This document shows positions 38,302 to 52,172 of a stretch of 64,000 bases of DNA, piece after piece. A program made the position numbers and the translations under genes. The notes under the pieces are model-generated. The model made no database searches. It saw nothing but the letters and a program-made list of their open reading frames with translations, and was not told the origin of the DNA. The stretch's first letter is position 1. Each line of letters starts with the position of its first letter. Source of the stretch: Iamia majanohamensis. Lineage in GTDB: Bacteria; Actinomycetota; Acidimicrobiia; Acidimicrobiales; Iamiaceae. The stretch is from assembly GCF_028532485.1 (NCBI RefSeq), contig NZ_CP116942.1, forward strand, positions 1,178,001 to 1,242,000, read 5' to 3'.

Positions 38302-38637
38302 ATGGCATCGCACGGGGTGGCGCGGGTCCGTTGCGAGGAGCGGGGGGTCGACGAGCTCCTGGCCGCCGTGGGCCGGGGGGACCAGGAGGCCCTGGCCGCC
38401 CTCTACGACGTGCTGTCACCGTCCGTCTTCGCCGCCCTGGCCCGGGTGACCGGAGACCACCGGCGGGCGGAGGAGGCCACCGCCGCCGTGTTCGTCGAGG
38501 TCTGGCGCCGTGCTCCGCACTTCGCACGCGGCGAGGGCACGGCGCGGGCATGGATCACCGCCCTGGCCCGCCGCCACCTGGTCGACGTCGCTCAGGCCGG
38601 CGACGGGTCGGCCACCAGGCGGGCGCTCAGCTCGTAG
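38302..38637 (+). CDS. ECF-type sigma factor fragment: region 2 only
   Basis: 111 residues from ATG 38302. VDELLAAVGRGDQEALAALYDVLSPSVFAALARVTGDHRRAEEATAAVFVEVWRRAPHFARGEGTARAWITALARRHLVDV is a full sigma-70 region 2 of the SigK-like ECF group. The frame stops after RRALSS with no region 4, whose HTH recognises the -35 element. The 3' 46 bases overlap the convergent heme oxygenase gene, so the missing part was not simply missed downstream. Either a decayed gene or a deliberately short factor. Upstream GGTT-N15-GGGCAG (38268-38292) could be its promoter. Confidence 0.7.
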   Translation: MASHGVARVRCEERGVDELLAAVGRGDQEALAALYDVLSPSVFAALARVTGDHRRAEEATAAVFVEVWRRAPHFARGEGTARAWITALARRHLVDVAQAGDGSATRRALSS

Positions 38638-39233
38638 GCCACGCGGACCTCGGCGAGGACCGCCGCCTGCTCGTCGTCGTCCCACGGGGCGGCGTCGAGG
38701 GCGGCCCGGTAGGCGTCCTTGACCTCGACGGGGTCGATCCCGACGAAGGTGTAGAAGCCCAGCTCGAGCTCGGGGTGGGCCCGGGCCAGGGCCCGGCCGA
38801 TGTGCTGGCCACCGGAGAGGTCGCCCAGGTACCGGGTGTAGTGGTGGGCGACGAAGCCGGCGGGCCAGCCACGGGTGGCCTCGATCCGTGCCGCGTACCC
38901 GAGGGCCGCCGGGCCCGCAGCCGGCGTCCCCTCCGGACCCCGCAGGCGGGCGAGGTCGGCCTCCAGCACGGCGGTGCGGGCCAGGCCCTCGACGAGGAAC
39001 GGCGCCACCACCGGGTCGGCGGCCAGGTCGTCGGCGACCTCCTCGAGGGCGCGGTACACGGGGAGGTGCTGGGCCAGGACCCACGCCAGGCCGGCACGGT
39101 CGATGCGGCCGGTGACGAGGGCGCGCATGGTCGCCGAGGTCTCGGCCGAGCCGTGGTCGCCCCGGGTCCCCTCCCGGAGCCGGGCGGCGAAGCCTGCCGG
39201 GGCGGTGTCGCGGGCGGTGGTGGTGCTCGTCAT
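38592..39233 (-). CDS. Heme oxygenase (biliverdin-producing)
   Basis: 213 residues from ATG 39233, GGGAG upstream. HO-1-type all-helical protein: REGTRGDHGSAETSATMRALVTGRI contains the proximal heme-ligand His, VLAQHLPVYRALEEVADDL follows, and TRYLGDLSGGQHIGRALAR is the diagnostic distal helix motif with its flexible glycines. It cleaves heme to biliverdin, CO and iron in the cytoplasm. It faces the heme-uptake operon starting at 39457 across a 223-base region, so import and degradation are controlled from one intergenic segment. Confidence 0.93.
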   Translation of the reverse strand: MTSTTTARDTAPAGFAARLREGTRGDHGSAETSATMRALVTGRIDRAGLAWVLAQHLPVYRALEEVADDLAADPVVAPFLVEGLARTAVLEADLARLRGPEGTPAAGPAALGYAARIEATRGWPAGFVAHHYTRYLGDLSGGQHIGRALARAHPELELGFYTFVGIDPVEVKDAYRAALDAAPWDDDEQAAVLAEVRVAYELSARLVADPSPA

Positions 39234-39456
39234 GGGTCTCCCGGGCGGGCTCGTCGGTGCAGGTGCAGCCGCCGCCAGTGTGGCGGTCGACCGGGCCGAG
39301 AGCAAGGCTGATGACGACATGGTGTCGCGACCACACGACCTCGCGTCGCCAGGGCATGACATCTGGTCGTGAACAAGACGGTCTCAGGCAGGACTCCCCT
39401 GCACATCGGGTCGTCGGGTTGCGCTGAGGCAGGGTGGCGCGCGAGCCTTCTCTGCA

Positions 39457-40854
39457 ATGAAAGGTGCACCTAACAGCCGGTGGGTGGTCCGCAAGGGGGC
39501 CAGGATGGCGGCCCTCGTCACGCTCGTCCTCGTCGCCCTCGCCATGCCCGCTCGAGGCGCGGCGGCAGCCCCCACCGCCCCCCTCGCGGCCCAGGTCCGT
39601 GCCGGCGGCAGCGTCTCCGCCGACGGCCTCACCGTGACCGACGGCCAGCGCACCCTGCGCGCCAGCCAGGTCCTCGACCTCGCACCCGGCGGCCAACAGG
39701 TGGCGGTGGCCGGCAGCGGCTACGACACGAGCAAGGGCATCTACGTCGCCCTCTGCCTGGTGACCCCCGGCGACCAGCCGCCCTCGCCCTGCGGCGGCGG
39801 CATCGACATCGACGGCACCAGCGGCGCCTCGGCCTGGATCTCGTCCAACCCGCCGTCCTACGGGGTGGGCCTGGCCTCCCCCTACGGCGCCGGCGGCACG
39901 TTCTCGACCACGGTGGCGGTGTCGCCCGTCCTGAGCGGGGGCTTCGACTGCCGCCAGGTCCAGTGCGCCATCGTCACGCGCAACGACCACGTCCGCACCG
40001 CCGACCGCGGCCAGGACCTGCTCCTGCCCGTGCGCTTCGGCACCGGTGCCGCGGCACCGGCACCGACGCCTGCGCCCGAGGCCCCCGCCCCGACCGCGCC
40101 GGCCCCCACCACGGCCCCGCCGACCACCGCGCCGCCCACCACCCTCGCCCCGCCTCCCGCGCCGACCACCACGGCCCCGGCCCCCGCCCCCGAGGCGACG
40201 CTGTCGGACGACGGGCGCACCGCGAGCGAGGGCGGCCGGAGCCTCACCGTGTCGCAGGTCGACGGCCTGGCCCCCGACGGCGACGTGGTCACCGTGGAGG
40301 CCGAGGGCTTCGACGAGGGCCGCGGCGTGCTCGTCTCGGTCTGTCGCGTGGCGGAGGCCCCGACCGAGGCGCCCGGCCCCTGCCTGGCGGGGGCCACCCC
40401 CGGCTCGTCGGCCTGGATCTCCTCGGACCCACCGGCCTACGCCGCCGACCTGGTCGAGCCCTACGACGACGGCGGCTTCTCGGTCGAGCTCGACGTGGCC
40501 GCGGTGATCGACGCCGACACCGACTGCCGCGAGGTCGAGTGCGCCGTGGTGGTGCGCCGGGACGACACCGAAGCGGACGACCGCACCCTCGACCTGGCCG
40601 TGCCCGTCGCCTTCGCCGCGGAGGAGGAGGCCCCGGCGACCACCACCACCGCCCCGGCGACCACCACCACCGCCCCGGCGACCGACGACGTGGTCGCCAC
40701 CGCGGATGCGGGCTCCGGCTCGGGCGGCGGACCGCTGCCCTGGGCCCTCGGGGCGGTGGGGCTGCTGGCGGCCGTGGGGGCGACGCTGCTCGTCCTCCGG
40801 GCCCGCCACCGGGGGGACGTCCCTCCCGGCACCCCCGCGGCGGAGGGGGCATGA
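39457..40854 (+). CDS. Surface protein with two neocarzinostatin-like domains and C-terminal TM anchor
   Basis: 465 residues from ATG 39457; ATG 39505 (AAGGGGG upstream) is an alternative but loses the basic n-region of the signal peptide. Mature protein: two copies of a roughly 150-residue beta-rich domain, recognisable by TLRASQVLDLAPGGQQVAVAGSGYD, GIYVALCLV, SAWISSNPP, a DCRQVQC pair and a closing QDLLLPVRF, repeated as LTVSQVDGLAPDGDVVTVEAEGFD and so on. A Thr/Ala/Pro linker (TTTTAPATTTTAPAT) and a final helix with basic tail follow. Fold resembles neocarzinostatin. Cell-surface heme capture is inferred from the HmuTUV neighbours. Confidence 0.75.
   Translation: MKGAPNSRWVVRKGARMAALVTLVLVALAMPARGAAAAPTAPLAAQVRAGGSVSADGLTVTDGQRTLRASQVLDLAPGGQQVAVAGSGYDTSKGIYVALCLVTPGDQPPSPCGGGIDIDGTSGASAWISSNPPSYGVGLASPYGAGGTFSTTVAVSPVLSGGFDCRQVQCAIVTRNDHVRTADRGQDLLLPVRFGTGAAAPAPTPAPEAPAPTAPAPTTAPPTTAPPTTLAPPPAPTTTAPAPAPEATLSDDGRTASEGGRSLTVSQVDGLAPDGDVVTVEAEGFDEGRGVLVSVCRVAEAPTEAPGPCLAGATPGSSAWISSDPPAYAADLVEPYDDGGFSVELDVAAVIDADTDCREVECAVVVRRDDTEADDRTLDLAVPVAFAAEEEAPATTTTAPATTTTAPATDDVVATADAGSGSGGGPLPWALGAVGLLAAVGATLLVLRARHRGDVPPGTPAAEGA
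39460..39473. promoter_or_regulatory. AGGTGCACCT palindrome, possible iron-regulator box
   Basis: AAAGGTGCACCTAA, an imperfect 14-base palindrome with a perfect 10-base core, is an AT-richer island at the very start of the heme operon. Its AGGT/ACCTAA half-sites resemble DtxR/IdeR boxes, though it is shorter than the 19-base consensus. It lies just inside the 5' end of the frame from ATG 39457 or about 31 bases before ATG 39505. Inference from position and shape. Confidence 0.4.
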
Positions 40855-41849
40855 CGCGCCGGGGGCGGGCGGCGGTCGTCGCCGCCACCCTGCTGCTCAC
40901 CCTCGTGGCCTGCGGAGGGGGCGGGCCGCAGGCCACCGAGGCCGCCCCGGGGCCGGGCGAGCGGGCCGAGGACCGGTCCGTGGAGGCCGTGGTCGCGGAG
41001 GCCACCCCGCAGCTGCCGACCGAGGTGACCTCGGCCGACGGGCGCACGGTCCGGGTCGACGACGTGAGCCGCATCGTCTCGCTCTGGGGCAACATCACCG
41101 AGACCGTCTACGGCCTCGGCCTGGGCGACGCCGTCGTGGGCCGCGACGTCGCGTCCACCTTCACCGAGGCCGAGGAGGTCCCGGTGGTCACCCGGGGCCA
41201 CGACGTGTCGGCCGAGTCGGTGCTCTCGCTGCGCCCCACGGTGGTGCTCGTCGACCCCACCATCGGCCCGCCGGAGGCCATCGACCAGATCCGCAACGCC
41301 GGCGTCCCGGTGGTCGTGGTCGACGAGGTCACCACCCTCGACGGCATCGGCGGCCGCATCCGCCAGATCGCCGAGGCCCTGGGCGTGGTCGAGGCGGGGG
41401 AGGCCCTGGCCGACGAGGCCGACGCCGAGATCGCCGCCGTGCAGGCCGACATCCCCGCCGAGGCCGACACCCCCCGCGTTGCGTTCCTCTACATGCGGGG
41501 CTCGGCCGGCGTCTACCTCATCGCCGGGCCCGGCTCGGGCGCCGACTCCATGATCGAGGCCGCCGGCGGCGAGGACGCCGGCACCGCCATCGGCCTCGAC
41601 CGACCCTTCACGCCCATCACCAGCGAGGCCCTCACCGAGGCCGCGCCCGACGTGATCCTCATGACGACGACGGGCCTGGAGTCCGTCGGCGGCCTCGACG
41701 GCCTCCTCGAGATCCCCGGCATCGCCCAGACCCCCGCCGGGCGCGACCGGCGGGTCGTCACCGTCGAGGACGGCCTGCTCTACAGCTTCGGCGGCCGCAC
41801 CGCCCGCGCCCTCGAGCTGATCATCGACCAGCTCCACACCCCCTCGTGA
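40851..41849 (+). CDS. hmuT: Hemin ABC transporter substrate-binding lipoprotein (HmuT-like)
   Basis: 332 residues from ATG 40851, ATGA overlap with the previous gene. Lipobox LTLVAC (Cys21). The mature protein is a class III periplasmic-binding fold: RIVSLWGNITETVYGLGLGDAVVGRD, VSAESVLSLRPTVVLVDPTIGPPEAIDQIRNAGVPVVVV, RVAFLYMRGSAGVYLIAGPGSGADSMIEAAGGEDAGTAIG and a final LYSFGGRTARALELIIDQLH. Length and motifs match the HmuT/heme group rather than vitamin B12 proteins. It delivers heme to the HmuUV importer encoded at 45751-47714. Confidence 0.88.
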   Translation: MTRRGRAAVVAATLLLTLVACGGGGPQATEAAPGPGERAEDRSVEAVVAEATPQLPTEVTSADGRTVRVDDVSRIVSLWGNITETVYGLGLGDAVVGRDVASTFTEAEEVPVVTRGHDVSAESVLSLRPTVVLVDPTIGPPEAIDQIRNAGVPVVVVDEVTTLDGIGGRIRQIAEALGVVEAGEALADEADAEIAAVQADIPAEADTPRVAFLYMRGSAGVYLIAGPGSGADSMIEAAGGEDAGTAIGLDRPFTPITSEALTEAAPDVILMTTTGLESVGGLDGLLEIPGIAQTPAGRDRRVVTVEDGLLYSFGGRTARALELIIDQLHTPS

Positions 41850-41872
41850 CCCCCGTGCCCCCGGAGGCCCCC

Positions 41873-43981
41873 ATGCGCCACCCCGCTCCTCGTCGTCGTC
41901 CGGCCGCCGCCCGGCGCACGCTCGTCGCCCTGGCCGCCGGCGTGCTGGCCGTCCTGGTGGTGGCGGCCACCCCGGTCCCCGGCGCGGCCGACCCCGCGCC
42001 CGACGGTCGGGCCCCGGCCCAGGCCCGGGCCACGACCGGGGTGGGCCCCGGTGGCCAGACGCTCACGGTCGACCCGGTGACGGGCCTCGACCCGGCGGGC
42101 GCCGAGCTCACCGTCACCGGCGAGGGCTTCGACGCGGCCGCCGGGTTCGACGTGGCCACCGACGGCCTCTACGTCGCCCTCTGCGTCGACAACGGCGTGG
42201 GCCAGACCCCCACCCCGTGCGTCGGCGGCGTCGACCTCACCGGGTCGGGCTCGGCCTCGCGCTGGGTCACCAACAACCCGATCGCCGGCGTGCCCGCCGC
42301 CGCGGTCACGCCCATGGCGGCCGACGGGTCCTTCTCCACCACGATCACGGTCACCGCGGCGGACCGGTTCGTCGACTGCACGACCCTGCCCGCGGGCAAG
42401 CAGTGCAAGGTCTTCACCCGTCTCGACCACCGCGCCAGCGGCGACCGCAGCCAGGACGTGCGCGTGCCCGTCTCCTTCGGCATCCCGGCCCCGAACGGCC
42501 CGGCCCTGGTCGTGACCCCGTCGTCGGGCCTCGACCCCGCCGGCACCGACCTCACCGTCACCGGCACCGGCTTCCCCACCGAGGCCCCCGGGGCCTACGT
42601 CGCCTTCGGGCCCGTGCCCGAGGACGGCACCGACGCCACCCGCTACGGCGTCGTCACCTTCGTCCCCTCGTCGGCCATCGGCCCGGACGGGTCCTTCACC
42701 GCCACGCTCCCGGACGTGGCTGCGGCCTACACCGACGGCGGCGGCACCGCCCGGGACTTCTCCGACGGCGGCGGCCACGTGTCCACCTTCCGCGCCCACG
42801 GCGTCCCCGACCCCGACGGGCGCTGGTCGGCCTCGGTGCCGGTGGCCTTCGCCGGCGCCGCCGTGCCCGCCACGACGACGACCCTGGCGGCCAGCGCCGG
42901 CTCCGTCGCCGTCGGCGCCCCGGTCGTGCTCACCGCCACGGTGACCACCGCGGCCGGGCCGGTCACCGCCGGGACGGTCGACGTGCGCTCCGGCACCACA
43001 CTCCTCGGCACCGCGGAGCTGGACGCCCGGGGCCGGGCGACGGTGCGCACCTCGTTCCCGACGCCAGGGGCCCGCACCCTGACCGCTGCCTTCCGGGGCT
43101 CCGCCGTCGCCGGGCCGAGCAGCTCGGCCCCCGTGGGCCTCACCGTCACCGCAGCCACGCCGCCGCCGCCAGCGGACGACCCGGCGCCGACCCCCGTCGC
43201 CACCGCCCCGAGCGGCTCGCGCACCGGCACCGGGCCTGCGGGCCAGACGTTGACGGTCACCCCGGTCGACGACCTCGACCCGGCGGGCACCGAGGTGGAG
43301 GTCACCGGCGAGGGCTACGACGCCGCCGCCGGCTTCGACCTGGCCACCGGGGGCATGTACGTCGCCCTGTGCGTCGACAAGGGCCCCGCCGTGGCGCCCA
43401 GCCCCTGCGTGGGCGGCGTCGACACCGAGGGCAGCTCCGGTGCCTCCCGGTGGGTGACCAACGACCCCTACGAGGGCGTGCCCGACGACGCCGTCGTGCC
43501 GGTCGCCCCCGACGGGTCGTTCCGGACCACGCTGACCCTGGAGGCCAGCGACGAGTACGTCGACTGCACCGCCCTGCCGGCCGGGGAGCGCTGCGTCGTC
43601 GCCACGCGGGTGGACCACCGGGCCAGCGCCGACCGCAGCCAGGACGTCAAGGTGCCGGTGTGCTTCGCCGGCGAGCAGGCGTGCACCACCGACCCGGTGG
43701 CCCCCGGTGACCCCGACGCCGCCCCCGCCTTCACCGGCTTCGGCCTCGACGACGCCGCCGCCGGCTCCGGCGTCGGCGGCCTGCCCCTCGGCGGCGGCTC
43801 GCTCGGGTCGTCCGGCCTCGGCCCCTCCGGCGGCCTGCCCCTGGCCTCCACCGGCGGGGGCGTCGAGCCCCTGCCCTACGGCATCGCCCTGGTCGCCGGG
43901 GGCCTCGCCCTCCTGGTCCTGGGCCGACGCCTCCACCGCTCCCGCGCCCGCCCCGTCGCCGTGCCGGTGGGCCGGCCCTGA
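41873..43981 (+). CDS. LAxTG-anchored surface protein with neocarzinostatin-like and Ig-like domains
   Basis: 702 residues from ATG 41873 (GGAGG 5 bases upstream; GTG 41846 overlaps the hmuT stop as an alternative). Signal peptide, then a neocarzinostatin-like domain (GLYVALCVDNGVGQTPTPC, DCTTLPAGKQCKVFTRLDHRASGDRSQDVRVPVSF), a related beta domain (about 205-325), a bacterial Ig-like domain (VLTATVTTAAGPVTAGTVDVRSGTTLL) and a second neocarzinostatin-like domain. The C-terminus has LPLASTGG, hydrophobic stretch and RRLHRSRARP: a LAxTG class E sortase signal. Likely wall-bound heme or hemoprotein receptor, from context. Confidence 0.8.
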   Translation: MRHPAPRRRPAAARRTLVALAAGVLAVLVVAATPVPGAADPAPDGRAPAQARATTGVGPGGQTLTVDPVTGLDPAGAELTVTGEGFDAAAGFDVATDGLYVALCVDNGVGQTPTPCVGGVDLTGSGSASRWVTNNPIAGVPAAAVTPMAADGSFSTTITVTAADRFVDCTTLPAGKQCKVFTRLDHRASGDRSQDVRVPVSFGIPAPNGPALVVTPSSGLDPAGTDLTVTGTGFPTEAPGAYVAFGPVPEDGTDATRYGVVTFVPSSAIGPDGSFTATLPDVAAAYTDGGGTARDFSDGGGHVSTFRAHGVPDPDGRWSASVPVAFAGAAVPATTTTLAASAGSVAVGAPVVLTATVTTAAGPVTAGTVDVRSGTTLLGTAELDARGRATVRTSFPTPGARTLTAAFRGSAVAGPSSSAPVGLTVTAATPPPPADDPAPTPVATAPSGSRTGTGPAGQTLTVTPVDDLDPAGTEVEVTGEGYDAAAGFDLATGGMYVALCVDKGPAVAPSPCVGGVDTEGSSGASRWVTNDPYEGVPDDAVVPVAPDGSFRTTLTLEASDEYVDCTALPAGERCVVATRVDHRASADRSQDVKVPVCFAGEQACTTDPVAPGDPDAAPAFTGFGLDDAAAGSGVGGLPLGGGSLGSSGLGPSGGLPLASTGGGVEPLPYGIALVAGGLALLVLGRRLHRSRARPVAVPVGRP

Positions 43982-44037
43982 GCCCGGCCCCCGCCGTCCC
44001 CATCCCCCACCTGTCCCACCCCATCCCGAGGAGTCCC

Positions 44038-45633
44038 ATGACCACCCACCCGCCCGAGGGCCACCGGCCCGCCCCGCACCACCACCGGGCCCGGCGCCCG
44101 CTGACGGCGCTGCTCGCCGCCGTGCTCGCCCTGGTCACCATGGTCGCCATCACCACGTCCGGGCCCTCCCCGGTCGCCGCCGCCGAGGGCACCGGCACCG
44201 GGCCCGGCGGACAGACGCTGACCGTCTCGGAGGTCGACGGCCTCGACCCCGAGGGCTCCACCGTCACCGTCACCGGCGCCGGCTTCACCGAGGCGGCCGG
44301 CTTCGACAACGACGAGGACGGGATCTACCTGTCCTTCTGCGTCGACAACGGCCCGGGCCAGACCCCGACGCCCTGCCTCGGCGGCGTGGACATGACCGGC
44401 CAGACCCACACCTCGCGCTGGATCACCAACAACGGCATCCCGGGCCAGCCCGCCCTCACCGTGCCCATGGGGTCCGACGGCACCTTCACCACGACCCTGA
44501 CCGTGATCGCCCAGGACGACAACACGGACTGCCTCGACCTGCCCGACGGCAAGGAGTGCAAGATCTTCACCCGGGCCGACCACCGGGCCAGCGGCGACCG
44601 CAGCCAGGACGTGCGCGTGCCGGTCACCTTCGGGGCGCAGGGCGGCACCGTCACCCTCGACCGCAGCACCGGGCTCGACGCCGCCGGCGACTCGGTCGTG
44701 GTGAGCGGCACCGGCTTCCCCACCGACAGCCCCGGCCTCTACGTCGTGTTCGGGCCCGTCCCCGAGGGCAACCAGACCGCGGCGCCGTTCAGCCCTGCGG
44801 CCTACGTCCGCTCGTCGTCCATCGCCTCCGACGGCAGCTGGCAGATCACCCTCCCGGGCATCAAGGCCCGCTACACGACCCGTGACGGCACGAGCTACGA
44901 CTTCCTCGAGGGCGGCGGCCACATCTCCACCTTCCGGGCCCAGGGCCAGCCCGACCCCGACGGCCTGTGGGCCACCAGCACGCCGGTCTCCTTCGACGTC
45001 CGCACCGCGGACGAGTCCTACGTGACCGCGGCGATGACCGACTTCCTCGGGGCGAAGCCCACGGCCGAGCAGGTCGACGCCGGCGTGGTCGTGCTCCAGA
45101 GCAAGGGCCGCAAGGGCTTCCTGGCCGAGCTGTCGACCTCCGACGAGTGGCTGACCGCCCTGGTCGACGGCCTCTACGAGGACACGCTGGGCCGCGAGGG
45201 CGACGAGGGCGGCGTGGCCTTCTGGGTCGACGAGCTGCGCTCGGGCCGCCGCTCGGTGGCCACCGTGGCCGCGCAGTTCTACTCGTCCGGTGAGTACTTC
45301 AACGGCATCGGCGGGGGCACCGTGGAGACCTGGATCGACGACCTGTACGAGAAGATCCTGCTCCGCCCGGCCGACGCCGGCGGACGGGCCTACTGGGTCG
45401 CCGAGGTGGAGGCCAAGGGCCGCGGCAACGTGGCCCGGCGCTTCTACCAGTCGGGCGAGTCGGCCCGCACCCGGGTCGACGCCCTGTACCAGTCCCTGCT
45501 CGGCCGTCCGGCCGACCAGGGCGGCCTCGACTTCTGGGGCCCCCGGGTGGTCGCCTCCGGCGACCTGACCCTGGCCGTCTCGCTCGCCGCCGGTGGCGAG
45601 TACGTGCAGAAGTCCGCCCTGCGGTTCCCCTGA
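44038..45633 (+). CDS. Secreted neocarzinostatin-like/DUF4214 repeat protein
   Basis: 531 residues from ATG 44038, GAGGAG 6 bases upstream. Signal peptide with His/Arg-rich n-region; one neocarzinostatin-like domain (GIYLSFCVDNGPGQTPTPC, DCLDLPDGKECKIFTRADHRASGDRSQDV), one related domain (VVSGTGFPTDSPGLYVVFGPVPEG), then about 190 residues of DUF4214-type helical repeats, seen as DTLGREGDEGGVAFWVDEL, KILLRPADAGGRAYWVAEV and SLLGRPADQGGLDFWGPRV. DUF4214 units occur in S-layer and adhesion proteins. No membrane anchor, so probably released or S-layer associated. Followed by a strong terminator. Confidence 0.82.
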   Translation: MTTHPPEGHRPAPHHHRARRPLTALLAAVLALVTMVAITTSGPSPVAAAEGTGTGPGGQTLTVSEVDGLDPEGSTVTVTGAGFTEAAGFDNDEDGIYLSFCVDNGPGQTPTPCLGGVDMTGQTHTSRWITNNGIPGQPALTVPMGSDGTFTTTLTVIAQDDNTDCLDLPDGKECKIFTRADHRASGDRSQDVRVPVTFGAQGGTVTLDRSTGLDAAGDSVVVSGTGFPTDSPGLYVVFGPVPEGNQTAAPFSPAAYVRSSSIASDGSWQITLPGIKARYTTRDGTSYDFLEGGGHISTFRAQGQPDPDGLWATSTPVSFDVRTADESYVTAAMTDFLGAKPTAEQVDAGVVVLQSKGRKGFLAELSTSDEWLTALVDGLYEDTLGREGDEGGVAFWVDELRSGRRSVATVAAQFYSSGEYFNGIGGGTVETWIDDLYEKILLRPADAGGRAYWVAEVEAKGRGNVARRFYQSGESARTRVDALYQSLLGRPADQGGLDFWGPRVVASGDLTLAVSLAAGGEYVQKSALRFP

Positions 45634-45694
45634 GGCCGTGACCGCCTCGGTCCGTCCCCGCCGTCGGTGACCGTCACCGGTCCCGGCACCGCGT

Positions 45695-45723
45695 CGAGGG
45701 GCCCCCGCCACGGGGGCCCCTCG
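45695..45723. terminator. Perfect hairpin between the DUF4214 protein and HmuU genes
   Basis: 45695-45707 pairs perfectly with 45711-45723 (13-bp GC stem, 3-base loop). It lies within the open extension of the permease frame, and is the main reason to start that gene downstream at 45751. Confidence 0.78.
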
Positions 45724-45750
45724 GCCGCGCCCCGAGACGGGCGGGAGCGG

Positions 45751-46896
45751 GTGCCCGCGGGGGGAGCAGCCGCGGCGGACACCCAGGTCGCGCCGGCGGA
45801 CCCCGTCGGGGGCGGGGCCCCGACGTCGGTCGTCGACGACGCCCCCCTCGCCACCGAGCCCACCAGCTGGGTCCGCTCCGGGCTCCTCATCGTGGCCCTG
45901 GGCGCCGCCCTCGCCGCCCTCACCGTGGTCGCCGGGGCGTCGGGCGCCTTCCGGGTCCCGCCCGCCGAGGTGGTGGGCTCGGTGCTGCACCGCCTCGGGC
46001 TGCCCCTCGGCCCCACCCCCGACGCCCTGGGCGAGGAGGTCCTCTGGCAGATCCGCTTCCCGCGGGTGGCCCTCACCGTGCTCGTCGGCGGGGCGCTGGG
46101 CTGCGCCGGGGCCCTCATGCAGGGCACCTTCAGCAACCCCCTGGCCGAGCCCGGCATCGTCGGCGTGTCGTCCGGTGCCGCCCTCGGGGCGGTGGTCGTG
46201 ATCGTCACCGGGCTGGCCCCGTTCGGCACGTGGAGCATCACCGGGGCCGCGTTCGTCGGCGGGGTCGTCACCGTGTTCGCGGTGTACGTGGCCTCCCGCC
46301 ACGACGGGCGCACCGAGGTCATCACCATGGTGCTCACCGGGATCGCCCTCAACGCCCTCACCGGGGCCGTGCTGGGCCTGCTCACCTACTACTCCGACGA
46401 CGCCCAGCTGCGGAGCATCACCTTCTGGACCCTCGGCAGCATGGCCCAGGCCACCTGGCCCAAGGTCGCGGTGGTGGCCCCGCTGGCGATCGCCGGCGTC
46501 GTCGCCGCCCCCGTCTTCGCCCGCCGCCTCGACCTCTTCGCCCTGGGCGACGGCCCCGCCCGCCACCTCGGGGTGGACGTGGAGCGGACCCGGCGGCGCG
46601 TGCTCCTGCTCGTCGCCGTGCTCACCGCGTCGGCCGTCGCCGTGTCGGGGCAGATCCTCTTCGTCGGCCTGGTGGTGCCGCACCTGGTGCGCATGGTGGC
46701 CGGCCCCGGCCACCGCCTCCTGGTCCCGGGCTCCACATTGGCCGGCGCCACCATCCTCGTCGGCGCCGACCTGGCCGCCCGCACCATGGCCGCGCCGGCC
46801 GAGATCCCCCTCGGCGTGCTCACCGCCCTGGTGGGCAGCCCCTTCTTCTTCTGGCAGCTGCGGCGCATGCGGTCGCGGCAGGGCGGGTGGGCGTGA
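45751..46896 (+). CDS. hmuU: FecCD-family hemin ABC transporter permease (HmuU-like)
   Basis: 381 residues from GTG 45751, chosen because GGGAG lies just upstream and a terminator occupies 45695-45723; the frame is open back to GTG 45667. About ten helices with FecCD landmarks: WQIRFPRVALTVLVGGALGCAGALMQGTFSNPLAEPGIVGVSSGAALG, GALLGLLTYY-like VLGLLTYYSDDAQLRSITFWTLGSM, LRHLGVDVERTRRRVLLLVAVLTASAVAVSGQILFVGLVVPHLVRM, and PAEIPLGVLTALVGSPFFFWQL. Homodimeric channel of the importer. GTGA overlap with hmuV. Confidence 0.9.
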   Translation: MPAGGAAAADTQVAPADPVGGGAPTSVVDDAPLATEPTSWVRSGLLIVALGAALAALTVVAGASGAFRVPPAEVVGSVLHRLGLPLGPTPDALGEEVLWQIRFPRVALTVLVGGALGCAGALMQGTFSNPLAEPGIVGVSSGAALGAVVVIVTGLAPFGTWSITGAAFVGGVVTVFAVYVASRHDGRTEVITMVLTGIALNALTGAVLGLLTYYSDDAQLRSITFWTLGSMAQATWPKVAVVAPLAIAGVVAAPVFARRLDLFALGDGPARHLGVDVERTRRRVLLLVAVLTASAVAVSGQILFVGLVVPHLVRMVAGPGHRLLVPGSTLAGATILVGADLAARTMAAPAEIPLGVLTALVGSPFFFWQLRRMRSRQGGWA

Positions 46897-47714
46897 GGGC
46901 CCTGCGCCCCGGTCGCCGGGCCCCGGAGCCCCACCTGCGGCTCGGGCCCGACGCCCTCGTGGCCGCCGACGTGGAGGTGACCCTCGGCGGCGCGCCGGTG
47001 CTGCGGGGCGTCGACGTGCGGGCCGGGGCGGGGGAGGTGGTGGCCCTCGTGGGTCCCAACGGCGCCGGCAAGTCGACGCTGCTCGGTGCCCTCGCCGGCG
47101 ACCTCGCCCCCTCGGCCGGCACCGTCGCCATCGGCGGCCGCCCGGTGGACGGGTGGGACGGCCTGGAGCTGGCCCGCACCCGGGCCGTCCTGCCCCAGCA
47201 GGCCACGGTGACCTTCCCCTTCTCGGTGCGGGAGGTGGTGGAGATGGGCCGGGCCCCGTGGGTCGCGCACGACGGCGACCCCGACGGCGCGGCCGTCGTC
47301 GACGCCGCCCTGCGGGCCACCGAGGTGGGCCACCTGGCGACCCGTCGGGTGCCGTCGCTGTCGGGGGGTGAGCGGGCCCGGGTGGCCATGGCCCGGGTCC
47401 TCGCCCAGCAGACCCCCGTGGTGCTCCTCGACGAGCCCACCGCCGCCCTCGACCTCCACCACCAGGAGCTGGTGCTCGACCTGGCCCGCCGGCGGGCGGG
47501 TGCCGGCGTCGCCGTGGTGGTCGTGCTCCACGACCTCGGGCTGGCCGCGGCCCACGCCGACCGGGTGGTGGTGCTCCGCGACGGGCTGGTGGTGGCCGAC
47601 GGGCCGCCCGCGGCCGTGCTCGACGCCGCCCTGCTCAGCGACGTCTACCAGCACGCCCTCGAGGTCGTCGCCCACCCCCGCACCGGCGCCCCGTTGGTGC
47701 TGCCCGTGCGTTGA
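46893..47714 (+). CDS. hmuV: Hemin ABC transporter ATP-binding protein (HmuV-like)
   Basis: 273 residues from GTG 46893. Walker A LVGPNGAGKSTLL, Q-loop in AVLPQQATVTFPFSVREVVEMGR, signature LSGGERARVAMARVLAQ, Walker B VVLLDEPTAALD and switch His in VVLHDLGLA. The LPQ...FPFSVREVV wording is typical of HmuV rather than FhuC or BtuD. Energises heme import with HmuU. Last gene of the operon; a TGCGACA/TGTCGCA hairpin (47725-47740) separates it from the convergent TetR gene. Confidence 0.92.
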   Translation: MRALRPGRRAPEPHLRLGPDALVAADVEVTLGGAPVLRGVDVRAGAGEVVALVGPNGAGKSTLLGALAGDLAPSAGTVAIGGRPVDGWDGLELARTRAVLPQQATVTFPFSVREVVEMGRAPWVAHDGDPDGAAVVDAALRATEVGHLATRRVPSLSGGERARVAMARVLAQQTPVVLLDEPTAALDLHHQELVLDLARRRAGAGVAVVVVLHDLGLAAAHADRVVVLRDGLVVADGPPAAVLDAALLSDVYQHALEVVAHPRTGAPLVLPVR

Positions 47715-47724
47715 GGGGCACGGC

Positions 47725-47740
47725 TGCGACAGGTGTCGCA
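47725..47740. terminator. Short hairpin between convergent hmuV and TetR genes
   Basis: TGCGACA (47725-47731) pairs with TGTCGCA (47734-47740), 7-bp stem. Position between convergent stops at 47714 and 47750 suggests a bidirectional terminator; the stem is short. Confidence 0.45.
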
Positions 47741-47749
47741 TCGGCGGGG

Positions 47750-48385
47750 TCAGCGGCGTCGGGGGATGCGGCGGGCGCTGCCGTCGGAGAGGAGCCGGAC
47801 GTCGAGGGCCCGCAGGACGAACCCCTCGGTGCGGGCCACGACCACGTCGAGGTCGGCACCGTCGGCGGCGAGGGCGCTGCCCCGCCCGATGCACGCGTTG
47901 ATCATCGACGCCGTGGTGGCCACGTCGTCCGAGGCCATGTACCGGTCGGCGACCCCGCGCCCGAGGATGTCGAGGAGCACGGCGTCGACCGCGGCCACGT
48001 GGTCGAGGACCCGGGCGAAGGCCTCCTGGGGGAGGAGGTGGCGGAGGGCCGGGCCCGGCGGCAGGTGGTGGCGGGCGAAGTAGGCGACCTGGTGGCGCAG
48101 GTAGGTCTGCAGCTGGCCCACGGGGTCGTCGACCTGGGCCAGGGCCTCCCGGAGCTGGGCGAGGTAGCGGTCGGTCTCCCGGCTCGCGTAGGCGACCAGC
48201 AGCGTCTCCTTGTCGGGGACGTAGTTGTAGATCGCGGTGCGGGCCAGCCCGGCCGCGGCGGCCACGTCGGCCAGGCTCACCGCGTCGTAGCCCCGCTCGT
48301 CCATGAGGCGGGCCAGGGCGTCGAAGATGCGTTCCCGGGTGACGTCGCGGTGGGTCTCCAGCGAGCCGCCGATCACCCGGGGCAC
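47750..48385 (-). CDS. TetR/AcrR family regulator
   Basis: 211 residues from GTG 48385. N-terminal HTH: TRERIFDALARLMDERGYDAVSLADVAAAAGLARTAIYNYVPDKETLLVAYASRETDRYL, the standard TetR signature. C-terminal helical ligand domain with HQVAYFARHHLPPGPALRHLLPQEAFARVLDHVAAVDAVL. Encoded at the end of the heme locus, convergent with hmuV, so local control of heme uptake by heme or another ligand is plausible but not shown; no operator could be assigned. Confidence 0.9.
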   Translation of the reverse strand: MPRVIGGSLETHRDVTRERIFDALARLMDERGYDAVSLADVAAAAGLARTAIYNYVPDKETLLVAYASRETDRYLAQLREALAQVDDPVGQLQTYLRHQVAYFARHHLPPGPALRHLLPQEAFARVLDHVAAVDAVLLDILGRGVADRYMASDDVATTASMINACIGRGSALAADGADLDVVVARTEGFVLRALDVRLLSDGSARRIPRRR

Positions 48386-48419
48386 AGCGTCCCCCGGGGC
48401 TCGGCTGCGGCGCCGCCCA

Positions 48420-48734
48420 TCAGTGCTCGGCGACCGGGAGGCCGAGGGCCTCGGACGCCTCGGTGTGCATGCGCACCACCTCGGCCCGGACCTGGGCCCG
48501 CTCGGTGATCGGCCCCGACCAGGGGACCACCACGGGGACGGGGGCCCCGTCGACGGTCGCCTCCAGCTCCAGGCCCTCGGGGCCCATCCCGGTCATCACC
48601 GCGGCGGTGGTCCCGGGCTGGCCGCCCAGCCCCCGACAGATGGTGACGTTGTCCTCGGCGTGGTCGTCGTTCATGTGCCGGGCCACGGCGGTCACGACCT
48701 CGGGCGAGAACGGGCTGGGGGCGGGGTCGGGCAT
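48420..48734 (-). CDS. DUF2470 domain protein
   Basis: 104 residues from ATG 48734. FSPEVVTAVARHMNDDHAEDNVTICRGL and MGPEGLELEATVDGAPVPVVVPW, then ERAQVRAEVVRMHTEA: this is DUF2470, otherwise found as the C-terminal domain of HugZ-like heme-utilisation and pyridoxamine-oxidase-fold proteins. Here it is free-standing beside the heme-uptake genes, supporting a role in heme handling. Upstream of the TetR gene by 34 bases on the same strand. Bases 48735-48916 contain no supported feature. Confidence 0.85.
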   Translation of the reverse strand: MPDPAPSPFSPEVVTAVARHMNDDHAEDNVTICRGLGGQPGTTAAVMTGMGPEGLELEATVDGAPVPVVVPWSGPITERAQVRAEVVRMHTEASEALGLPVAEH

Positions 48735-48916: not shown

Positions 48917-50560
48917 TCAGCCGGCGCCGGTGAGGGCGTCGACGGTGGCGTTGCCGGTGGACCCGCTCGTCGGGTCGCTGGTGGCATCGCCGCTGTCGCC
49001 GCTGCCGGTGTGGGAGCCGCTCGTGGCGGATCCGTTGCCGGCGTCGCCGGTGTCGCCGCCGTTGGTGTGACCACCGGTGGTGCTGCTCCCGCTGGTGGAG
49101 CCGGAGTCGGCGGTCGGGCTGGCGGTGACGTCACCGGAGCTGCCCTCGTTGTGGGAGTCGCCGGAGGTGGCGTCGGGGTCGACGCCGGCGTCGCCGGTCG
49201 GCCCGGAGTCGCCGGTGGCGCCGGTGGCGCCGCTGGTGGCGGTGGTGTCACCGGTGACGTCGCCACCCTCGTCGGTCCCCTCGTCGACGTCGCCCTGACC
49301 GGGCTGGTCGTCGGTGGGCTCGACGGTGGCGGTGCCGCTGTCGCCGGAGTCCCCGGTGTCACCCGAGGTGCCGGAGGTGGCGGTGCCGTCGGCGGTGGAG
49401 TCGCCGGTGTCGCCGGAGCCGACGTCGCCGGAGGTGGCGTCGACGGTGTTGCCGGCGTCGCTGGTGGCGTCCCCGGTGTCACCACCGGTCACGGTGCCGG
49501 TGGTGTCCGAGTCGCCGGAGTCGCCCCCGGTCCCGGTGCCGGTGGTGTCGCTGGTGGCGTCCCCGGTCGGGCCGGAGTCGGCGGTGCCGGTGGCGTCGCC
49601 GGTGTCGCCGGTGGCGGCCAGGGCCTCGAGCATCTGCTCGACCTGGTCGTCGGTGGCGTCACCCTCGTCGTCGCCGGTGTCACCGGGGACGGTGCCCTCG
49701 GTGGCGGCATCGGTGGCGGCGTCGCCGCTGTCACCGGTGGCCGGGTCCGAGGTGGCGTCCCCGGAGTCTCCGGAGCTGGTGCCGGACAGGGCGTTGCCCT
49801 CCCCGTCGCCGGCGTCGCCGGTGTCGCCACCGCCGACGCCTCCGATGGTGCTCGAGTCGCCCGAGGTGGCATCGCTGCTGGCCTCGGGATCCGCGGTCAC
49901 GTCACCGGAGCTGCCCTCGTTGTGGGAGTCGCCGGAGGTGGCGTCGGACTCGACGCCGGCGTCGCCGGTGGCCCCGGAGTCGCCGGAGTCGCCGGTGTCG
50001 CCGCTCTGGGCGGTGGCGTCGCCGGTGCAGTCCCCGAACAGGGCCACGCAGGGGGCGACGGTCATGGCGTCGCCGGAGTCCCCGGAGTCGCCGGTGTCGC
50101 CGGAATCCCCGGAGGTGGCGGTGCCGTCGGCGGTGGCGTCGCCGGTGTCTCCGGAGCCGACGTCACCGGAGGTCCCGGTCACGTCGTTGCCGGCCGACGA
50201 CGACGAGTCCCCGGTGTCGCCACCGGTCACCGTGCCCTCGGTGCTCGAGCCACCGGAGTCGCCTCCGGTGCCCTCGCCGGTGGTCGACGACCCGGCGTCG
50301 CCGGTGCCGCCGGAGGTGGCGTCACCGTTCGCGTCGCCGGTGTCGCCGGACTGCGCGGTGCCCGAGAGCTCCTGGAGCAGCGACGACATGCCGCCGTCGT
50401 CGAGGGAGCCGGGCTCCACGATCGACGCCGACGAGGACGTCGGCAGCGATGAGGTGGTGGTGTCGGTGGGTGCCGCTCCGGCCATCCCGGTCCCGAGCAG
50501 CAGACCGGCTGCGCCCAGGGCCGCGGTGGCAGCGGCCTTCTTGGTGGTGGTCCATCGCAT
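48917..50560 (-). CDS. Secreted Gly/Asp/Ser/Thr-rich repeat protein
   Basis: 547 residues from ATG 50560, AAGGAG about 10 bases upstream. Signal peptide (KKAAATAALGAAGLLLGTGMAGAAP). Nearly the whole mature protein is built from GDTGD, SGDSGD and GDATSD-like units with few other residues; one short patch APCVALFGDC carries the only two Cys, and a DDQVEQMLEALAA helix sits mid-protein. The block DATSGDSHNEGSSGDVTA occurs twice, and larger segments around it are duplicated. The Asp spacing suggests calcium or other cation binding. No cell-wall signal. No family recognised. Its gene follows that of another low-complexity secreted protein. Confidence 0.75.
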   Translation of the reverse strand: MRWTTTKKAAATAALGAAGLLLGTGMAGAAPTDTTTSSLPTSSSASIVEPGSLDDGGMSSLLQELSGTAQSGDTGDANGDATSGGTGDAGSSTTGEGTGGDSGGSSTEGTVTGGDTGDSSSSAGNDVTGTSGDVGSGDTGDATADGTATSGDSGDTGDSGDSGDAMTVAPCVALFGDCTGDATAQSGDTGDSGDSGATGDAGVESDATSGDSHNEGSSGDVTADPEASSDATSGDSSTIGGVGGGDTGDAGDGEGNALSGTSSGDSGDATSDPATGDSGDAATDAATEGTVPGDTGDDEGDATDDQVEQMLEALAATGDTGDATGTADSGPTGDATSDTTGTGTGGDSGDSDTTGTVTGGDTGDATSDAGNTVDATSGDVGSGDTGDSTADGTATSGTSGDTGDSGDSGTATVEPTDDQPGQGDVDEGTDEGGDVTGDTTATSGATGATGDSGPTGDAGVDPDATSGDSHNEGSSGDVTASPTADSGSTSGSSTTGGHTNGGDTGDAGNGSATSGSHTGSGDSGDATSDPTSGSTGNATVDALTGAG

Positions 50561-50690
50561 GATGGTGTGTCTCCTTGGGTTCGGTCTCGTGTGGTCCCGG
50601 CCACCCCTCATCGGGAGGCGGCGGCCGGTGGACCGACCCGGGTGCGCACGACAGGCGCCCCGGGCGATCCGGGTGGGGCTCTCGGGCCCT

Positions 50691-52172
50691 CTACCCGGGT
50701 GAGACCGGAGGTTCGTCGACGCCCCCGAAGACCGGGAGGGCGACCTCGGCGACCGCCCGCGACGTCCCCGGCCAGCCAGCACCAGCCGGCGGCGGGAGCA
50801 CCGCGAGCGGCGTCGAGGACGACGCCGTCGACGAGGACGAGGGAGCGCCTGCACCCGGCCCGGGCACGGGGCCCGGGAGGGGAGCAGGCAGGGAGAGGGG
50901 GCCGCCGGGGGCGGAGCCCTCAGGGCGTACCGCCGCGGGCGGGGCGCTCGTCGCGCCCTCGGCCGAGAGGCGGGGGGTGGAGGTCGTCGTCGGGGCGATC
51001 GCGTCGGCGGGGGGCGTGGGCCGGCTCCCCGTCCGGACGGGGACGGCGGCAGGCGGCGCGTCCAGGGCGGCGGCGCCGACCCCCGGGGCCCGGCGAGCAT
51101 CGACGGCGCCGCCCGTCGCCGTCGGCCCTCCGTCCACCGGGGGGCGGAGGGCGTCGACGGTGGGGGCGAGGGCGGTGCCCACGGGGGTGACGGTCGCGGC
51201 CAGGCGGGCTGCGGGCGTCGTCAGGGGGGTGGCCGCCTCGACCAGTGGCGCGGTCACCGGTGCGGTCGCGTCGAGGAGGCGAGCGGTGAGTGGGGCGGTG
51301 GCCTCGACCAGTGGCGTGGTCACCGGGGTGGTGGCCTCGAGGACGCTGGTGGTGAGCGGGGCGGTGGCCTCGAGGACGCCGGTCGTGAGCGGGGCGGTGG
51401 CTTCGACGACCGGGGTGGTGACGGGGGCGAGGGCCTCGACCGCAGGTGTGGTGACCGTGGCGGTGGACCCGACGACCGGGGCGACCGCGGAGGCCGCGGC
51501 CTCGACCAGGGGGGCGGCACCGCGGGCGGCCGCTCCGACGGGCGCCGGCTCGGGCTCGGTGCCGTCCTCGGCGTCGGTGGGGGCCTCGGCGTCGGTGGGG
51601 GCCTCGGCGTCGGTGGTCGCCTCGGCGTCGGGTGAGGGCGCACCGGCGACCGGGGCCACGACGTCCCCGGCGGCATCCGCTGCGGCGCGGACCGCGGCGT
51701 CGGCCGGGGTGGCGGGTGCACCGTCGGCCACCGGCGCCTGGGGGCCGGCAGCGGGCTCGACTCGCGCCCCCTCGACGTCGGCGGTCGGCGGGGCCGGGTC
51801 CTGGTCCTCGGTGGAGGTGTCGTCGGGCCCGGCCTGGGCGCCGACGGGGGCGGGGGCCTCGGCCGGCTCGCCGGTCGGGGCGGGTGCCTCCGGGGCGACG
51901 GGATCGGTCGGGGCGGGGCCCCCGGGTGCGTCCGGCGCGACCAGCTCGGAGACGGGCTCGGCCAGGTCGCCGACGGCCTCCGCGACGGGGCCGTCGGCGG
52001 GCGCCGGCGTCGTCGGCAGAGGGCTCGAGGGCCCGCCGGTGGGTGCCTCCTGGGCGCCGGCCGGCGCGCCCTGCTGGAGCAGGAGGAGGACCAGCGCCAG
52101 GCCCAGCCCGCCGACGGCCGCCAGCACGGCACGGCCCCAGCGGGGCAGCACGGGCGAGGCGGAGGACGACAT
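50691..52172 (-). CDS. Secreted Pro/Ala/Thr-rich repeat protein
   Basis: 493 residues from ATG 52172 (MSSSASPVLP), which gives a good signal peptide: VLPRWGRAVLAAVGGLGLALVLLLLQQGAPAGAQ. The mature chain is low complexity, with DAEAPTDAEAPTDAE and a central array of about 11-residue units of the form VLEATAPLTT (around residues 235-315). The C-terminus is Pro/Ser-rich. No domain or anchor. It resembles stalk or mucin-like wall proteins. Same strand as the next repeat protein, 130 bases apart. Function unknown. Confidence 0.68.
   Translation of the reverse strand: MSSSASPVLPRWGRAVLAAVGGLGLALVLLLLQQGAPAGAQEAPTGGPSSPLPTTPAPADGPVAEAVGDLAEPVSELVAPDAPGGPAPTDPVAPEAPAPTGEPAEAPAPVGAQAGPDDTSTEDQDPAPPTADVEGARVEPAAGPQAPVADGAPATPADAAVRAAADAAGDVVAPVAGAPSPDAEATTDAEAPTDAEAPTDAEDGTEPEPAPVGAAARGAAPLVEAAASAVAPVVGSTATVTTPAVEALAPVTTPVVEATAPLTTGVLEATAPLTTSVLEATTPVTTPLVEATAPLTARLLDATAPVTAPLVEAATPLTTPAARLAATVTPVGTALAPTVDALRPPVDGGPTATGGAVDARRAPGVGAAALDAPPAAVPVRTGSRPTPPADAIAPTTTSTPRLSAEGATSAPPAAVRPEGSAPGGPLSLPAPLPGPVPGPGAGAPSSSSTASSSTPLAVLPPPAGAGWPGTSRAVAEVALPVFGGVDEPPVSPG

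Follow-up and report, generated by a model that had tools for sequence, protein, structure and literature searches.

Which proteins would handle heme at the cell surface of Iamia majanohamensis, ahead of an importer of the HmuTUV type, is the question raised by window positions 38592-48734. The window is the whole stretch of DNA analyzed, 64,000 nucleotides (nt) of contig NZ_CP116942.1 (positions 1,178,001 to 1,242,000, forward strand; assembly GCF_028532485.1, 1 contig, 4.58 Mb). These positions hold a heme-uptake island of 9 genes, all located as given in an earlier note on this DNA. The gene order is heme oxygenase (reverse strand); SP1, HmuT, SP2, SP3, HmuU and HmuV (forward strand), where SP1-SP3 are secreted proteins; and a TetR-type regulator and a stand-alone DUF2470 protein (reverse strand). 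Within the run from SP1 to HmuV, neighboring genes overlapped by 4 nt or were separated by 23-56 nt. The island was confirmed as the earlier note described it, and its arrangement is more than chance, since the same set of genes is met repeatedly in the phylum. SP1, SP2 and SP3 share a domain with a predicted neocarzinostatin-type fold, and this domain is probably a surface module for heme binding and relay, with a role like that of CR or NEAT domains on another fold. The earlier interpretation is supported overall; heme binding, the ligand roles of a conserved Tyr and His, and the direction of transfer are what we infer.

Predicted fold and family of the shared domain

The domain was found in SP1-SP3 as five full copies (~140-150 residues) and two short, type II copies (~120 residues). 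SP2a was 38-68% identical to the other four full copies. The Tyr of a YVALC-type motif and the His of an RxDH motif were both present in 4 of the 5 full copies, with neither in SP1b. This fits the earlier description of three secreted proteins with a common domain in 'four copies plus relatives'.

No window copy matched a Pfam or NCBIfam model over its cut-off. For the neocarzinostatin family (PF00960), none scored above 25 bits, the curated Pfam cut-off, which places the copies outside the family by that measure; 51 of 99 related domains matched PF00960 at E 0.01 or better (best 1.6e-6). When the profile of these 99 copies was compared with the PDB, the neocarzinostatin family was found at E 1e-5 to 0.05, the top match being ThiX (E 1e-17), and a narrower alignment (A4) had ThiX as its sole match (E 4e-4). 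The AlphaFold2 model of SP1a, made with the 99-copy alignment, had a mean predicted local distance difference test score (pLDDT) of 94.4 and a predicted template modeling score of 0.90. In VIA-align 2, rows 1-10 for this model were the neocarzinostatin family (1nco: Z 12.7, root-mean-square deviation 1.9, 104 aligned) and the next row had Z 7.6; with Foldseek, the one PDB match at E ≤0.001 was macromomycin. The short-type SP2b was modeled from alignment A6 with a pLDDT of 93.1 and a best neocarzinostatin-family Z of 12.9, so that the models of both long and short domains have the neocarzinostatin-type beta sandwich. The neocarzinostatin-like fold had been a guess in the earlier note, and it is upheld by a confident model together with the profile matches.

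Likeness to neocarzinostatin, macromomycin and the C-1027 apoprotein lies in the predicted fold and in cysteines that align to residues 37, 88 and 93. The window domain differs in having Tyr at 33 and His at 101, in its heme-uptake locus, and in scoring below the PF00960 cut-off. By sequence, ThiX (PDB 7qhm chain M) is a member of the window domain family, matched over the whole domain with Tyr and DH motif conserved. It differs in being a lipoprotein of the Corynebacterium glutamicum bcc-aa3 supercomplex; the available text of PMC8795186 gives its soluble domain as not resolved in the structure.

A divergent HtaA/CR domain was considered as the identity of the window domain and rejected, since PF04213 had 0 matches in the source genome (the C. 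glutamicum control matched) and the profiles showed no relation (hhalign probability 0.15% against HtaA domains). NEAT (PF05031) had no match in the source genome, but control genomes gave none either. CR domain structures were absent among the listed fold matches, which is no evidence either way.

Co-occurrence with HmuTUV and iron boxes

Across 396 genomes sampled evenly from the phylum, the domain (E 1e-8) was found in 13, HmuT (E 1e-30) in 32 and both in 12; at most 10 candidates per genome were scored for the domain and at most 5 for HmuT, so absences are less sure than presences. HmuT was thus present in 12/13 domain genomes vs. 20/383 others (Fisher P = 1.1e-13; 1.2e-12 without the source genome), and in 10 of the 12 genomes with both, the two lay ≤10 kb apart on one contig (exceptions G426 and G647). 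Among the 41 genomes nearest to the source the domain was found in 9, source included. Each of the other 8 had at least one more island gene beside the domain, HmuT being found in G001, G003, G019 and G021. Domain matches at E 1e-6, not all of them complete, were found in 16 of a class sample of 296 genomes.

A named collection had 116 stretches encoding relatives, of which the best 80 were used. Domain loci were found in Streptomyces, Micromonospora, Actinoplanes, Dactylosporangium, Nonomuraea, Actinomadura, Nakamurella, Motilibacter, Crossiella and metagenome bins, among others. With 8 further loci, including L077, chosen as an HmuT locus without the domain, 88 were compared. The domain was present in 87, and HmuT in 81 of those 87. 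Of the 88, 53 had HmuU, 26 heme oxygenase, 15 DUF2470 and 5 TetR; HmuV was counted in 57, which is weak evidence, as some unrelated ABC (ATP-binding cassette) ATPases (29-40% identity) are included. These counts include one contig twice (as L070 and as L086) and a number of short contigs, with Streptomyces over-represented. Open reading frame (ORF) calls from our own script mis-assign some frames where the DNA is GC-rich, and were relied on only when similarity backed them. No relative was found on viral contigs with the N-terminal part of SP2 as query, and no plasmid match with one Streptomyces member as query. The earlier note had proposed a check of co-occurrence with HmuTUV across Actinobacteria and had named its absence beforehand as grounds for abandoning the idea; the counts by genome and by locus pass this check.

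Iron boxes of the DtxR/IdeR/DmdR type were searched as the consensus AGGTWAGSCTWACCT with ≤1 mismatch. The 80 loci (1.39 Mb) had 86 boxes, compared with ~0.7 in base-shuffled sequence. Of these, 78 lay within 700 bp upstream of domain ORFs (8% of bases), a 108-fold higher density, although this region may also serve a divergent hmuT. Boxes touched 82 of 179 domain ORFs, in 48 of the 80 loci. As controls, 16 regions (293 kb) around ordinary neocarzinostatin-family domains had 1 box, in the HtaA-linked L231. At ≤2 mismatches, boxes were present at L191 (G426) and L192 (G647), the phylum-sample loci away from HmuT, and in only 2 of the 16 control regions (L228 and L231), both of which hold HtaA.

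As iron boxes fit heme and siderophores alike, the domain could instead bind another small ligand under iron limitation, such as a ferric siderophore, another tetrapyrrole or a thiamine-related molecule. Neocarzinostatin itself carries a non-heme ligand. In addition, the available part of PMC8795186 ties ThiX genetically to thiamine. This alternative is nevertheless quite unlikely, given that the adjoining HmuT has the heme-site residues, that heme oxygenase is encoded at 26/88 loci, and that the domain is fused to CR-type domains elsewhere.

The Tyr/His pair, HtaA fusions and the reading of the domain

By profile alignment to 2cbt, the conserved Tyr falls on neocarzinostatin residue 33, the YVALC Cys on 37 and the RxDH Arg on 98; by extension of the same alignment, the His falls on 101. 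According to the available text of PMC3754942, a neocarzinostatin variant that binds a steroid was engineered at 33, 37, 47, 52, 78 and 98; its Trp33 runs alongside the rings of the steroid, and loop 100-101 is involved in binding it. By alignment, Tyr and His thus fall on positions of the ligand cleft.

Conservation was assessed in 261 full copies from 96 sources (the window, 15 loci of relatives and the 80 named loci). Of these, 228 had both Tyr and His, 21 only Tyr, 2 only His and 10 neither; in the set thinned to 70% identity (n = 92) the corresponding numbers were 69, 12, 2 and 9. As the locus search pattern asked partly for DH, non-seed copies were tallied apart, and 117/137 had both residues. 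Tyr was kept more strictly (95% of copies) than His (88%), and 12 of the 21 Tyr-only copies had a His one residue off (AHG or AHA) by reading of the list. The control set consisted of 20 PF00960 matches over the cut-off from 13/396 genomes, two of them in the source genome. Tyr was found in 8, a His no more than 8 residues beyond the last cysteine in 3 (L204, L209 and L211), and both in 1, L211, which shares an open frame with an HtaA domain; L209 adjoins one. HmuT was found in 0/16 regions around control domains, and L228 had HmuU/HmuV-like genes. The two residues singled out in the earlier note thus separate, as a pair, the copies at heme loci from ordinary neocarzinostatin-family domains (228/261 vs. 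1/20).

Immunoglobulin-like repeats are common spacers in wall proteins, and the key residues are lost in SP1b, as might be expected if the domain were a passive surface spacer or adhesion repeat travelling with the locus. The strong conservation of one Tyr and one His, the rarity of the pair among control domains, and the single full copy in 141/179 domain ORFs make this very improbable.

HtaA (PF04213) was found in 18/396 genomes and in 10/13 domain genomes; it was not found at E 1e-8 in the window genome, G110 or G476. In five genomes, one open frame encoded a true HtaA domain (over the cut-off) together with the window-type domain (L195, L196, L197, L198 and L073), the domain matches being weaker in L196 (best 4e-11) and L197 (best 3.5e-11). 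By our own reading L195 has copies with Tyr and His. Coordinates and frame lengths suggest more such fusions in G074 (contig 32) and G426 (contig 7). Apart from these fusions, the HtaA/CR hemophores of Corynebacterium resemble the window system in locus type (HmuTUV and heme oxygenase), in their secreted and anchored proteins and in a conserved Tyr with a His partner. They differ in having no sequence relation to the window domain, and in the placement of the Tyr: the axial Tyr of CR is in a helix according to PMC12494546, and the conserved Tyr of the window domain is in a beta strand of the AlphaFold2 model. As far as the available text of that source goes, the axial Tyr of CR is constant, its helper is His or Tyr, and the hemophore types named for Gram-positive bacteria are NEAT and CR. 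The NEAT domains of Isd systems are likewise surface modules in multi-domain proteins with a proposed relay to an ABC importer (PMC12494546, available text); they differ in belonging to another family and in occurring in Bacillota.

Fusion to HtaA in one polypeptide would also suit a division of labor in which the window-type domain binds hemoproteins by protein-protein contact while the HmuT or HtaA partners bind heme. Some NEAT domains bind hemoglobin in this way. The missing His in the fused copies of L198 and L073, and the lack of the full Tyr/His pair in SP1b and the type II copies, also agree with such a division. It is unlikely all the same, because the window genome, G110 and G476, in which no HtaA was found, would then have no other known surface heme holder, and because in the alignment the conserved residues fall on the ligand cleft.

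Several observations weigh against heme binding and relay by the domain. The domain loci of G426 and G647 are away from HmuT, G635 has the domain with no HmuT at the threshold used, and 20 of the 32 HmuT genomes are without the domain; the importer can therefore do without it. Four of the genomes nearest to the source (G004, G018, G020 and G023) keep the domain beside TetR and DUF2470 with HmuT not found; in G018 and G023 the domain has heme oxygenase next to it, and in G004 and G020 the contig stops at this point. HmuT was also missing from 6/87 domain loci (L075, L093, L111, L133, L155 and L156). In type II copies the His is one residue off or replaced, and in the fused copies of L198 and L073 it is absent from that place (own reading). 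Tyr alone was rejected as a mark of heme binding, as it occurs in 8/20 controls. No iron box was found in the window (≤3 mismatches) or in several related Acidimicrobiia loci. Lastly, ThiX, a member by sequence, sits in a respiratory supercomplex and has the genetic tie to thiamine (PMC8795186, available text).

If the domain is a heme-binding relay module, surface heme work in this organism would be done by a neocarzinostatin-fold domain instead of HtaA/CR or NEAT. Copies with the Tyr/His pair would hold ferric heme in the cleft where neocarzinostatin keeps its chromophore; Tyr (position 33) would coordinate the iron, and His (position 101) would assist Tyr or act as second ligand. From SP2 in the wall, secreted SP3 and SP1 at the membrane, heme would travel inward to HmuT and from there to HmuUV, and heme oxygenase would then free the iron. 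SP1b and the type II copies may be docking or spacer units. The counterpart of SP1b in G001 and G003 is also without Tyr and His, which suggests a conserved role for SP1b not involving heme.

Anchoring agrees with the earlier note, which had named a wall protein with an LAxTG motif (SP2, ending in LASTG and a hydrophobic segment) and a membrane-anchored protein (SP1, ending in a hydrophobic segment). The 80 loci had 179 domain ORFs: 65 with a sortase-like C-terminus, 30 with a hydrophobic segment only, 81 with neither and 3 that were cut. SP1-SP3 represent one each of the first three kinds. Sortase (PF04203) had six matches in the source genome. These C-terminal types and sortase matches are compatible with a wall-to-membrane relay and are no proof of it.

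Island features and implications

The identities given in the earlier note to the importer, processing and regulatory genes held, with family profiles over their cut-offs (Table 1). The heme oxygenase is of the HmuO type, and its start codon is probably downstream of the listed one. HmuT matched C. glutamicum HmuT (5az3) with a phmmer E of 7.6e-60 and with the heme-site residues aligned: His141, Tyr240 and Arg242, named for CgHmuT in the available text of PMC4926363, correspond to His117, Tyr214 and Arg216. As these residues are kept and HmuV matches the NF010068 equivalog, a heme-type ATPase, HmuTUV of the window is very probably, by its sequence, an importer for heme. It resembles Corynebacterium HmuTUV in this heme site and differs in its surface partner proteins. 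The DUF2470 protein had a weak match to the HugZ heme oxygenase (E 8.9e-5).

Table 1. Features of the heme-uptake island, in window coordinates
Feature	Position	Strand	Evidence and remarks
Heme oxygenase	38592..39362	-	PF01126 123.7 bits (cut-off 23), E 1.2e-35, residues 58-251
SP1	39457..40854	+	Secreted; two domains, C-terminal hydrophobic segment, without sortase motif; overlaps HmuT start by 4 nt
SP1a, full domain copy	39616..40041	+	Tyr codon 39742-39744, His codon 39988-39990
SP1b, full domain copy	40204..40617	+	Tyr and His both replaced
HmuT, heme-binding lipoprotein	40851..41849	+	PF01497 128.5 bits (cut-off 27.5); His117, Tyr214, Arg216
SP2	41873..43981	+	Secreted; two full and one short domain, Big_3_5, LASTG sorting signal and hydrophobic segment
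SP2a, full domain copy	42029..42481	+	Tyr and His
SP2b, short (type II) domain	42497..42856	+	Without the cysteines; predicted fold
SP2c, full domain copy	43217..43672	+	Tyr and His
LASTG sortase-type motif of SP2	43841..43855	+	C-terminal signal reading
SP3	44038..45633	+	Secreted; one full and one short domain, three DUF4214, no C-terminal anchor seen
SP3a, full domain copy	44185..44634	+	Tyr and His
SP3b, short (type II) domain	44641..44997	+	Without the cysteines; Gln at His position
HmuU, permease	45667..46896	+	PF01032 (FecCD) 310 bits (cut-off 26.5), E 1.9e-92
HmuV, ATPase	46893..47714	+	NCBIfam NF010068 'heme ABC transporter ATP-binding protein' 311.2 bits (cut-off 261)
TetR-type regulator	47750..48385	-	PF00440 (TetR_N) over cut-off; beside the domain in several relatives too
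DUF2470 protein, stand-alone	48420..48734	-	PF10615 over cut-off, E 3.1e-18

No sigma-70 promoter or terminator was found in the window. A palindrome, TGCGACAGGTGTCGCA, separates the hmuV end from the tetR end (window 47725-47740). Two congeners have a block like AAGGNTGGTTAACAG immediately upstream of SP1 (L028:5578 and L029:7870, reverse strand), with a weaker one in L080; this block is a possible operator. Adjoining the island, window 48917-51100 (reverse strand) holds a long, low-complexity, secreted-looking ORF with GDTGDSGD-type repeats. Outside the island, the source genome encodes two more neocarzinostatin-family proteins (2742704-2742970, L001; 3504822-3504995, L002), and part of L002 resembles the DUF4214 region of SP3. 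In G018, in which no HmuT was found, a peptide-type ABC importer (SBP_bac_5, two BPD_transp_1 and ABC_tran; L033:5528-10819) adjoins heme oxygenase and domain proteins.

No description linking a neocarzinostatin-type domain to heme uptake was found among the literature matches listed, in a search mostly without subscription journals and without preprints; an earlier mention is possible. The nearest described protein is Actinoplanes missouriensis CwpG (PMC13251363), a candidate SrtE-dependent surface protein that has a neocarzinostatin-like domain; it was likened by description, and the word 'heme' is absent from the main text of that source as available. A neocarzinostatin-based artificial oxidation catalyst appears as a title cited in PMC6288486.

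Beyond what the earlier note had proposed, profiles show no relation between the domain and HtaA, the two are fused in other genomes, and iron boxes accompany the domain genes in many other actinobacteria. A broader reading is put forward tentatively, as a possibility we rather doubt: that the neocarzinostatin fold was turned, independently of NEAT and CR, into a third surface module for heme binding and relay in Gram-positive bacteria, with a Tyr/His pair in the former chromophore cleft, which substitutes for HtaA (window genome) or works fused to it and is the same heme-binding domain that ThiX carries on the supercomplex. If true, a third Gram-positive hemophore module would stand beside NEAT and CR, on another fold, and many secreted or sortase-anchored proteins without a family name, from Streptomyces and Actinoplanes to Acidimicrobiia, would gain a function. 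An antibiotic-carrier fold would then serve in nature as a hemoprotein scaffold, and the role of the ThiX soluble domain in the respiratory supercomplex would become testable.

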